Of a stretch of DNA of 64,000 bases, positions 26,232 to 56,016 are shown one piece after another; position 1 is the stretch's first letter, and every line of letters begins with the position of its first letter. The notes beneath the pieces were generated by a model. The model was not told the DNA's origin. It did not search any database and saw only the letters and a list, made by a program, of their open reading frames with translations. The DNA is from Halanaerobiales bacterium (GTDB taxonomy: Bacteria > Bacillota > Halanaerobiia > Halanaerobiales > Halanaerobiaceae), in the NCBI GenBank assembly GCA_016278485.1, contig JADQBT010000010.1:1-64000 (forward strand). Direction: 5' to 3'. The translations under genes were made by a program, and so were the position numbers.

Positions 26232-26355
26232 AAATGATGTACCTTTTTGCTGCTCTTAAAGCCTCTGTGAAGACAGGACGTCGTAAACAGAGGCTTTCGA
26301 GAGTGAGTTAAGACACGATGTCTTAACGAACGTCAGCATAAAAGGTACATCATTT
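26232..26355 (+). repeat. cloverleaf-like structured repeat, copy 1 (complete)
   Basis: Outer stem P1: 26232-26252 pairs with 26334-26355 (21 bp, one bulge). P2: AAAGCCTCTGT (26258-26268) with ACAGAGGCTTT (26287-26297), topped by a small stem GAC/GTC with loop AGGAC. P3: GTTAAGAC (26307-26314) with GTCTTAAC (26320-26327), loop ACGAT. Single-stranded joints are CTCTT, CGAGAGTGA and GAACGT. The joints and loops recur in the copy at 34521 while stems differ in a compensating way. It sits 8 bp after the xylH stop. Confidence 0.8.
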
Positions 26356-26363
26356 TTTATAGA

Positions 26364-27476
26364 CTAAGATCTTTGTTTTTTATTCATAATGTCAACCCAG
26401 ACAGCAAATATAATAATTAAGCCCTTTACTATTAACTGATAAAAAGTATTAATCCCCATTAAACTCATTCCATTATTAATTACTCCAATAATGAAAGCAC
26501 CGATAATTGAACCTGTAACAGTTCCAAATCCACCAGATAGGCTGGTTCCACCAATAACAACAGATGCAATTGTATCTAATTCAAACATTTTTCCCAGATT
26601 AGGTGAAGCACCATTGAGTCGGGAAGCTAAAATTATACCACCGATTGCAGCCAGGGTAGTAATAAAAGAAAAAACAAACATTTTAGTTTTAAAAATATTG
26701 ATCCCTGATAACCAGGCCACATTTTCATTACCACCAATTGCATATAGTCTTCTTCCTAACTTAGTCTTTCTTAATATAAAGACCCCTAAAGCAACAAAGA
26801 CTACTAAAATTATTACAGGAATAGGAATACCTCGGTAACCTATGAATACAAAGAAAGCAAGGAAAATTCCTAAAAACAAAAAGATGAATTTACTAAAGGT
26901 GTTGATTTTACTGACTTCAATATTATTTGCTTTTTTCCGCTTGACTGCTTTTAGGATACTGTAAATCCCTACAATTAAAGCAATCCCTAATATAATTAAA
27001 GATGTTACCTTATTAATATATCCTCCCCCAATAAAAGAAAAAGCGGGAGCTGTAACAGGGATAGAAACACCTTGAGTTAGAGTTAAAGCCAGACCTCTAG
27101 CAATTGTCATCATACCCAGTGTGATAATAAAGGGAGGTATATCATACTTGGCAATCCAAAAACCATTCCAGAGGCCAATCCCTACCCCTACCAGCAAGAT
27201 GGTTAATATTATTGCTAATGTAATAGATAAACCCGCCTGCATAAGCAATGTTACAGTTACGGCAGCCAATCCCACAATTGAACCAACAGATAAATCAATA
27301 CCGCCAAGTAAAATAACCATTGTCATACCTACAGACATAATACCGATAACAGTAACCTGACGCGCTAAATTTGTTAAATTACGCGGCGTAAAAAATACTG
27401 GCGATAGAAATGAAAGAATAATCATCAGGCCAATCAAAGCCAGAATTGTCGAATTCTCTTTTAATAATTTTTTCAA
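26364..27476 (-). CDS. xylH: sugar ABC transporter permease, XylH-like
   Basis: 370 residues with about ten membrane segments. Family motif GGIDLSVGSIVGL near 60 and the EAA-like loop with GGTSLSGGFGTVTG near 315 are intact. The extra cytoplasmic/membrane stretch near 170-230 is typical of XylH and MglC-type permeases longer than RbsC. It overlaps the ATPase gene by 4 bp and follows the xylose-type binding protein, so it forms the membrane channel of that importer. Substrate is inferred from the binding protein. Confidence 0.85.
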   Translation of the reverse strand: MKKLLKENSTILALIGLMIILSFLSPVFFTPRNLTNLARQVTVIGIMSVGMTMVILLGGIDLSVGSIVGLAAVTVTLLMQAGLSITLAIILTILLVGVGIGLWNGFWIAKYDIPPFIITLGMMTIARGLALTLTQGVSIPVTAPAFSFIGGGYINKVTSLIILGIALIVGIYSILKAVKRKKANNIEVSKINTFSKFIFLFLGIFLAFFVFIGYRGIPIPVIILVVFVALGVFILRKTKLGRRLYAIGGNENVAWLSGINIFKTKMFVFSFITTLAAIGGIILASRLNGASPNLGKMFELDTIASVVIGGTSLSGGFGTVTGSIIGAFIIGVINNGMSLMGINTFYQLIVKGLIIIFAVWVDIMNKKQRS

Positions 27477-34242: not shown

Positions 34243-34520
34243 GAAAACAACTCCTATAAATTATTATCACCTTTATATTTCTCGATTAATCTACTATTTC
34301 CTGCTCTTAAGCTTTTTTGCTGCTCTTTAACTTTTATGAAATTGTAGATGAAAAATATATTTGCAAAAAAACTTGTATGTATAAATAAATGATGTACCTT
34401 TTTGCTGCTCTTAAAGCCTTTATGAAGGCAGGACGCCGGAATAAACGCTTTTAACTTTTATGAAATTATAGATGAAAAATATATTTAGCAAAATAAACTA
34501 TTCTAAAAATGTATATTATG
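34243..34520. repeat. broken copies of the cloverleaf repeat and a 43-bp direct repeat
   Basis: 34386-34451 is the 5' half of the cloverleaf repeat. It has the same outer strand as the copy at 26232, then AAAGCCTTTAT pairing with ATAAACGCTTT (one mismatch) and a GGC-AGGAC-GCC tip, but no P3 and no closing strand. Two shorter scraps with the TGCTCTT joint lie at about 34302 and 34320. A direct repeat of about 43 bases (34326-34367 and 34450-34493, differing by one substitution and one inserted base) flanks the half copy, suggesting recombination. The promoter of the binding-protein gene must also lie here. Confidence 0.65.
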
Positions 34521-34643
34521 TTAATAGGGTAGCTATCTTCTGCTCTTAAGCTTTTATGGAGGCACGATGCCGAGAATAAAAGCTTCGAGAGTGAACTAAG
34601 ACACGATGTCTTAGTGAACGTCAGAAGATAGCTACCCTATTAA
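34521..34643 (+). repeat. cloverleaf-like structured repeat, copy 3 (complete)
   Basis: P1: 34521-34542 pairs perfectly with 34622-34643 (22 bp). P2: AAGCTTTTAT (34548-34557) with ATAAAAGCTT (34576-34585), tip GGC-ACGAT-GCC. P3: ACTAAGAC (34595-34602) with GTCTTAGT (34608-34615), loop ACGAT. Joints CTCTT, CGAGAGTGA (34586-34594) and GAACGT (34616-34621) are identical to copy 1 at 26232. It sits 10 bp after the stop of the gene ending at 34654, on the opposite strand sense. Confidence 0.85.
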
Positions 34644-55170: not shown

Positions 55171-55650
55171 TTATCTTATAGCTTTCATTCTAGCAATATC
55201 CATTGTATTTTTAGAAGTAGTTACTGTTATCAAATTAACATCTGTTTTAAGTTCTTCTAGATTGTCCAAAATATTTTTCTGATTCCCGCTAACTTGAGCT
55301 ACTTCATTTGCTAGTTTGTCTATTTCCGCTTTATGAACATCTGCTTTATGTTCTAATGCTCTCAAAACATTTGTATTTTCCTGCTGTTGTACCTTAATCT
55401 GTTTCAATTCCAGAGTCATATTATCTAATCTACTATCAATTCCTGTGAACCGTTTGTCAACCCGTTCAAACCGTTTATCAATTCGATCAAATCGTTCGTC
55501 AATCTGCTCAAATCGTTCGTCAACCTGTTCAAACCGTTTATCAATGCAATCAAAACGCTTGTCAATCTGCTCAAATCGTTTATCAATTTTACTAAAATGT
55601 GAGTTCATCTGATCTAAAATTTTCTTTAACATTTCTTCCATTGATGTCAC
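55171..55650 (-). CDS. coiled-coil protein with RF-x-x-[IV]-D heptad repeats
   Basis: 159 residues, no signal peptide or membrane segment. Residues about 19-80 contain eight consecutive seven-residue units of the form R-F-(E/D)-x-(I/V)-D-(K/E), coded by 21-bp DNA repeats; the rest is a continuing coiled coil ending in KNTMDIARMKAIR. It is preceded by a related coiled-coil gene 27 bp upstream. Such proteins are common but uncharacterised in Firmicutes; the repeat number may vary between strains. No function can be given. Confidence 0.7.
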   Translation of the reverse strand: MTSMEEMLKKILDQMNSHFSKIDKRFEQIDKRFDCIDKRFEQVDERFEQIDERFDRIDKRFERVDKRFTGIDSRLDNMTLELKQIKVQQQENTNVLRALEHKADVHKAEIDKLANEVAQVSGNQKNILDNLEELKTDVNLITVTTSKNTMDIARMKAIR

Positions 55651-55677: not shown

Positions 55678-56016
55678 TTAAACTATTTTTTCCATCAAAG
55701 ATTCAATATCACGCATATTCTCTCCCGACATTCTCCGAACAGTTCCAAGTTTTAAATCAATTTCTTTTAACCGCTTATCAACTTTATCAAAACCGGTTTC
55801 TACTTTTCCTCCAAGACTGTCCATTTGCCCTTCAAGACTATCCATTCTCTGTTCCAAACTGTCCATTTGCCCTTCAAGACTATCCATTCTCTGGTCCAGA
55901 CCATCAATTTTGTTTTCAATTATGTCCAGTCTTTTATCAAAACCATCCATTCTCTGTTTGATTTCTTTTTCAAAATTATAAAAGCCTTTCAATAATTCAT
56001 CCATCTTATCACTCAA
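55678..56016 (-). CDS. coiled-coil protein with RMDSLEGQMDSLE repeats
   Basis: 112 residues, no signal peptide. Coiled coil throughout, with a 14-residue unit RMDSLEGQMDSLEQ present twice (DNA repeat near 55816-55893) and a C-terminal part KLGTVRRMSGENMRDIESLMEKIV. The ends of this protein and of its neighbour share the pattern 'K/R-x-x-MDIARMK' or 'MRDIESLM', which suggests they are related. They form one operon. Function unknown. Confidence 0.7.
   Translation of the reverse strand: MSDKMDELLKGFYNFEKEIKQRMDGFDKRLDIIENKIDGLDQRMDSLEGQMDSLEQRMDSLEGQMDSLGGKVETGFDKVDKRLKEIDLKLGTVRRMSGENMRDIESLMEKIV

Follow-up and report, generated by a model that had tools for sequence, protein, structure and literature searches.

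A dispersed palindromic repeat of Halanaerobiales with a conserved two-hairpin core resembling TwoAYGGAY RNA, and its proposed connection to CsrA

The window analyzed here, a 64,000-nucleotide stretch of a contig from a Halanaerobiales bacterium, contains two palindromic segments that keep the same fold while differing over much of their sequence, raising the question of what these segments are. An initial annotation offered three options: a mobile palindromic element, a 3'-end processing structure, or a structured RNA made from the plus strand. Its basic observations were borne out by our analysis. Both segments contain the joints CTCTT, CGAGAGTGA, and GAACGT(CAG), the closing stem P1 is unrelated in sequence between them and spans 20-22 bp, and the remaining stems differ with pairing kept. 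RNA folding gave energies of -64.3 kcal/mol for copy 1 and -70.4 kcal/mol for copy 2, and 0 of 200 shuffled sequences equalled either copy. The copies, their parts, and their decayed relatives in the window are as follows (R1 and R2 are the covariance models introduced below).

26232-26355, plus strand: copy 1, full structured palindromic element (fold z = -11.2; 119.7 bits with R1, 80.8 bits with R2)
26232-26252, plus strand: copy 1, 5' arm of P1, a subfamily-specific inverted repeat (sequence and fold)
26253-26303, plus strand: copy 1, arm P2 (CTCTT..GAGAG), with tip loop AGGAC at 26275-26279 (sequence and fold)
26307-26327, plus strand: copy 1, arm P4, with loop ACGAT at 26315-26319, GGA lost (sequence and fold)
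26334-26355, plus strand: copy 1, 3' arm of P1 (sequence)
34521-34643, plus strand: copy 2, full, with ACGAT in both loops and GGA absent (held-out recovery at 89.4 bits; fold z = -12.0)
34377-34441, plus strand: decayed 5' half of the copy-1 type (91% identity to copy 1)
about 34294-34340, plus strand: older 5'-half remnants CTGCTCTTAAGC and GCTGCTCTTTAAC (sequence comparison)

The fold is not the four-armed cloverleaf originally described. Closing stem P1 and the two arms P2 and P4 form a three-way junction, and arm P2 consists of the CTCTT..GAGAG pairing, a variable stem, and then a tip hairpin. The joints had been described as single-stranded, which does not fully hold for CTCTT as it pairs with GAGAG. 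The loop ACGAT, previously assigned to P3, is present, and represents a variant of the A(N)GGAY loop typical of the family. GGA is kept in only one of the four loops of the window copies (P2 of copy 1), suggesting that both copies are probably decaying. The initial count of two complete copies in the window is correct, although it missed at least two decayed 5' halves (34377-34441 and about 34294-34340). The first of these lies upstream of copy 2 in the same orientation, and an R1 match of 31.9 bits extends across 34396-34498. Each decayed 5' half is followed by one unit of a 44-bp direct repeat, TTTAACTTTTATGAAATT..TAGATGAAAAATATATTT (34326-34369 and 34450-34493, 91% identical), which could be either the missing 3' portion or the decayed unit duplicated in tandem. 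Elsewhere in the window, 21-bp tandem repeats of 7 copies each are found at 55427-55615 and 55795-55962; they have the look of coding sequence, possibly of a coiled-coil gene.

Covariance model R1 combines copy 1 with two further copies of the same genome and leaves out copy 2. The model recovered the held-out copy 2 with a score of 89.4 bits (E = 7e-20). The genome contains four full copies together with decayed halves, the full copies outside the window, from the search of this genome, being:

C13:29711-29815: full copy
C9:107694-107798: full copy

Using a refined model, R2, composed of 29 copies from six genomes, we counted 93 copies in genome G048, 87 in G025, 30 in G324, and 13 in G097, and found the repeat in at least 14 of the 398 genomes of a phylum sample, representing 13 genera, in a search that scored few candidates for each genome. 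The concern in the initial annotation that no further copies might exist is overturned by these matches. The repeat was not found in the same-family relatives G001-G013, unlike G025, from the same order, and G048, from the same class, which are rich in it. One copy is located on a contig binned as Nitrospirae. Pattern matches in Streptomyces and most of the others in genome contigs were rejected by the covariance model, and a viral link was discarded, as the model confirmed 0 of 11 pattern matches in IMG/VR. A literature search found no published description of the repeat in Halanaerobiales. To the right of the copy at L004:1599-1720, on contig C13 of the same genome, the P1 end sequence CAATATACTAGTAGG is present about five times in tandem.

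Two observations reveal that the repeat inserts. For three G048 copies the orthologous sites in the congener G041 are empty, measuring 36-68 bp versus 334-409 bp, and newer copies are nested within older ones, splitting them into 5' and 3' halves (L050, L133, and the flanks of G048 copies). Together with the multicopy occurrence, these findings support the mobile palindromic element among the three options. The elements are about 125 bp long in the window and reach about 215 bp in G025; they are short, ORF-free, bounded by terminal inverted repeats, dispersed, and at three loci absent from the orthologous site, properties that they share with MITEs. Short, ORF-free, intergenic, and dispersed units with inverted-repeat ends are common to MITEs and to bcr1-type structured repeats. 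Compared with an ordinary MITE, however, the arrangement is reversed, in that the core fold of the window family is conserved across genera and the ends vary. An attC-type integron site was considered and rejected, as the core-site layout of attC is absent.

How the element is carried differs between genomes. Searching G048 via the end sequence for an autonomous element returned only nested and modular copies without an ORF. The G324 copies examined sit within a 1,624-bp insertion sequence, in its 3' non-coding part, downstream of a 392-residue transposase that we take to belong to the ISAs1 family:

L119:83-1706: G324 insertion sequence, with ends GGGCAAAATCATTT that differ from those of the repeat; at least five near-identical copies

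An ISAs1-type insertion sequence as general carrier was rejected, since it is confined to G324; the nearest related remnant, found in G408, is a truncated one from which no empty site could be obtained. The G025A subfamily, a unit of ~210 bp, has its own outer ends TATATAAGTNGCA and ATATA-like flanks, and the empty G041 sites are too diverged for a target-site duplication to be read. Both the G324 and the G025A arrangements would be expected if the core were a conserved passenger, with a regulatory unit or RNA gene travelling on many unrelated insertion sequences and MITEs and taking its P1 from whichever carrier it occupies. The Halobacteroidaceae P1 terminus TAGTCAAYATRT argues otherwise, as it is recognizable in several genera and acts as the element's own end, and we regard a passenger as improbable.

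The family also resembles REP/RAYT systems in being palindromic, intergenic, and clustered (PMC3733652). It is, however, several times longer than a REP and forms a three-way junction, and on inspection it lacks the REP layout of GTAG or CGTC at the base of the palindrome; REP palindromes measure 20-40 bp and go together with a Y1 transposase (PMC3733652).

Examination of the R2 alignment (29 copies) revealed two-sided changes in 28 of 35 base pairs. Covariation was 0.473; shuffles gave 0.197, and sliding the pairing partners gave no more than 0.175, which overturns the second concern of the initial annotation, that covariation might be missing. We are highly confident that this is a mobile structured family. 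P1 behaves as a variable inverted repeat whose sequence varies freely between lineages around a conserved core, and for this stem the covariation could be mutational: through template switching, mutations in one arm of a long quasipalindrome are copied into the other, so that only the core would be under selection. This would account for arms that are wholly different between copies yet near-perfectly paired, as also seen in the TwoAYGGAY repeats of G297 discussed below, but leaves the conserved imperfections and two-sided changes of P2, P3, and P4 unexplained. We consider it a tentative account, which concerns P1 only and is compatible with the mobile structured element that we favor.

The conserved part of the element is concentrated in its two arms. 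Both carry 3-bp hairpins with A(N)GGAY loops above internal loops that are rich in purines and in part tandem G·A. Among 101 distinct copies the A, G, and A positions of these A(N)GGAY-like loops are almost invariant, and GGA is found in 93 P2 loops and 94 P4 loops (overall, in 93% of copies). In the P4 internal loop, 91 of the 101 sequences have the G·A opposition and 84 the A·G opposition; this tandem G·A holds family-wide and is weaker in the copies of the window's own genome. At 23 well-aligned pairs G·U outnumbered A·C by 83 to 11 cells, or by 40 to 11 genome-by-pair events (p = 6e-5), as counted in an alignment fitted to a model that itself favors G·U. This excess points to the plus strand as the one that folds, as a single strand of either RNA or DNA. 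The option of a plus-strand structured RNA is upheld to that extent, and the mobile-element and structured-RNA options are jointly supported.

If the folded strand were DNA only, the element would be a mobile hairpin without RNA function, recognized as ssDNA by an HUH/Y1-type transposase in the manner of REP-RAYT or IS200/IS605-like elements. Its palindromic, dispersed, and nested copies are consistent with such a hairpin, and selection on a DNA single strand would likewise yield more G·T than A·C. On the other hand, the ends are free to vary between lineages and the core is not. We think a DNA-only hairpin unlikely, and the same can be said of the corresponding view of the loops as protein recognition sites on ssDNA.

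The genomic context bears on this question as well as on the third option. The copies are almost all intergenic, lying about 10-200 bp from gene ends as judged from simple ORFs rather than annotated genes. The adjacency to gene ends noted initially is real in Halanaerobiales; the stop codon of a minus-strand ABC permease gene (26364-27476) is 8 bp from the end of copy 1. In G025 and in the genome of the window, the plus strand usually runs antisense to the genes on either side and close to a gene end, as would suit a DNA-only hairpin. The strong strand-by-replichore bias in G025 (52 of 60, assuming an origin at coordinate 0) would also suit it, but this bias is absent in G048. The plus strand is co-directional with genes in G038, G050, G097, and part of G046. 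Such variation in orientation across lineages leaves a dedicated 3'-end processing signal unsupported. The proximity to gene ends and the long perfect helix of P1 could be read as a 3'-end stabilizer, terminator, or RNase III site of the upstream operon, but a terminator scan gave no match at the window copies and the conserved loops would be left unexplained, making this role very improbable. No convincing plus-strand promoter was found upstream of the window copies.

The initial annotation knew of no named class for this structure, which is correct for the joints but not for the architecture of two A(N)GGAY hairpins, which is that of TwoAYGGAY RNA (Rfam RF01731; PMC2864571), an RNA without an assigned function since 2010. 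The two share a long, poorly conserved external stem around two A(N)GGAY hairpins, a tandem G·A in one arm below a 3-bp tip stem, and multicopy dispersal. They differ in their joints, which are GCGACTCTT / GAGAGTGA / GAACGRCAAG in the window family and CAG / AG / CGGUUGCGUC in TwoAYGGAY, and in the spacing of the hairpins, which are separated by a joint in the former and nearly adjacent in the latter. RF01731 aligned with copy 1 over its full length and on the same strand at 22.9 bits, against a gathering cut-off of 43. Further sub-threshold matches at R2 positions were obtained for a G048 copy (26.1 bits), L048 (26.1 bits), and in G039. An Rfam scan of the window copies and the scanned family copies returned nothing at the gathering score, and in most other repeat-bearing genomes RF01731 had no match. 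At 24 RF01731 loci, all eight weak R2 matches fell inside the RF01731 match and on the same strand (chance about 1e-13).

Of the defining features of RF01731, the two AYGGAY-type hairpins within an external stem are present family-wide, although in the window GGA is kept only in P2 of copy 1, and the tandem G·A is found in P4; the consensus joints are lacking. As the scores of 20-26 bits do not reach 43, we file the window family as a divergent relative and not as a member. The shared anatomy and the coincident weak model matches suggest that the two are probably related, and the likeness may stem from homology or from convergence toward a common ligand. The types coexist in G039, which contains an above-threshold TwoAYGGAY (C1:3463418-3463572, L195; 51.7 bits) in addition to copies of the window family. 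TwoAYGGAY is also a dispersed repeat; four genomes contain 55, 29, 28, and 23 copies, respectively, and in G344 and G086 its repeats have sharp ends about 268 bp apart. In the genomes examined, TwoAYGGAY and its divergent relative are both dispersed palindromic elements with tens of copies.

For TwoAYGGAY a CsrA hypothesis had been drawn from motif matches, which were also found for another family, and tandem G·A was noted (PMC4333381). Within the 398 genomes, csrA is present in 52 of the 55 with TwoAYGGAY versus 229 of the 343 others (67%; p = 3e-6), and of the three TwoAYGGAY genomes without csrA, two are incomplete (75% and 63%). At the family level csrA occurs in 28 of 28 TwoAYGGAY families versus 105 of ~141 (p about 9e-5, the total number of families being estimated). 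This association could be due to clade composition. Of the 14 genomes with the window family, 12 have csrA, which is not a significant association (p = 0.17), and family f50 (G097, with 13 copies, and G138) has the repeat and apparently no csrA. Further arguments against a DNA-only hairpin are the co-occurrence of TwoAYGGAY with csrA and the fact that the paired A(N)GGA loops and the tandem G·A also occur in TwoAYGGAY, which was described as an RNA family. The most likely candidate ligand of the window family is CsrA, an assignment that we put forward only tentatively. The CsrA-sequestering sRNAs of the CsrB/RsmZ type likewise present paired GGA hairpin loops; in contrast to these, the window family has only two hairpins, many dispersed copies, a ligand that is predicted, and no Rfam match to those sRNA families.

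We prefer to explain the repeat as an insertion element that is palindromic, MITE-like, and non-autonomous, with a structured RNA unit as its conserved core. A transposase is assumed to work in trans on the element ends, with P1 serving as a long closing stem and freely evolving inverted repeat. We propose that the plus strand is transcribed and that the junction holds the two GGA hairpins together so that a dimeric protein that recognizes GGA, with CsrA the likeliest candidate, can bind them. On this proposal every copy would yield a small RNA that captures CsrA, and transposition would spread such RNAs. Points against it are the Rfam scores below gathering, the non-significant csrA association of the window family and the apparent lack of csrA in f50, the loss of GGA from three of the four window loops, the antisense plus strand in G025 and in the genome of the window, and the absence of a convincing plus-strand promoter before the window copies; neither a transposase nor a target-site duplication could be established. 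We give a MITE-like repeat with a TwoAYGGAY-like core and CsrA capture, taken as a whole, an even chance. It is rather doubtful that the window family and TwoAYGGAY form one class of mobile elements that spreads CsrA-capturing RNAs in Bacillota and jointly titrates CsrA; if true, tens of transposed copies would titrate a global post-transcriptional regulator. The dispersal and the co-occurrence of TwoAYGGAY with csrA turn a vague candidate RNA into a choice between a CsrA sponge and a transposition hairpin, and genomes with about 90 copies, such as G048, offer organisms in which to study it.

Several individual loci display further structure. In G048, copies L094, L100, L104, L105, and L107 contain an extra insert of ~110 nt placed exactly in the tip of P2, following CCATGGA and bounded by CATAGCCAGCAT..ATGCTGGCTATG, which suggests that the hairpin loop serves as the target of a second repeat family. 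The G297 TwoAYGGAY loci L227, L229, and L230 have a common core and unrelated, near-perfectly complementary outer arms of at least 30 bp, and the TwoAYGGAY pair L227 and L228 is bounded by GGGGACGGTTCTNCTGACTCA palindromes.
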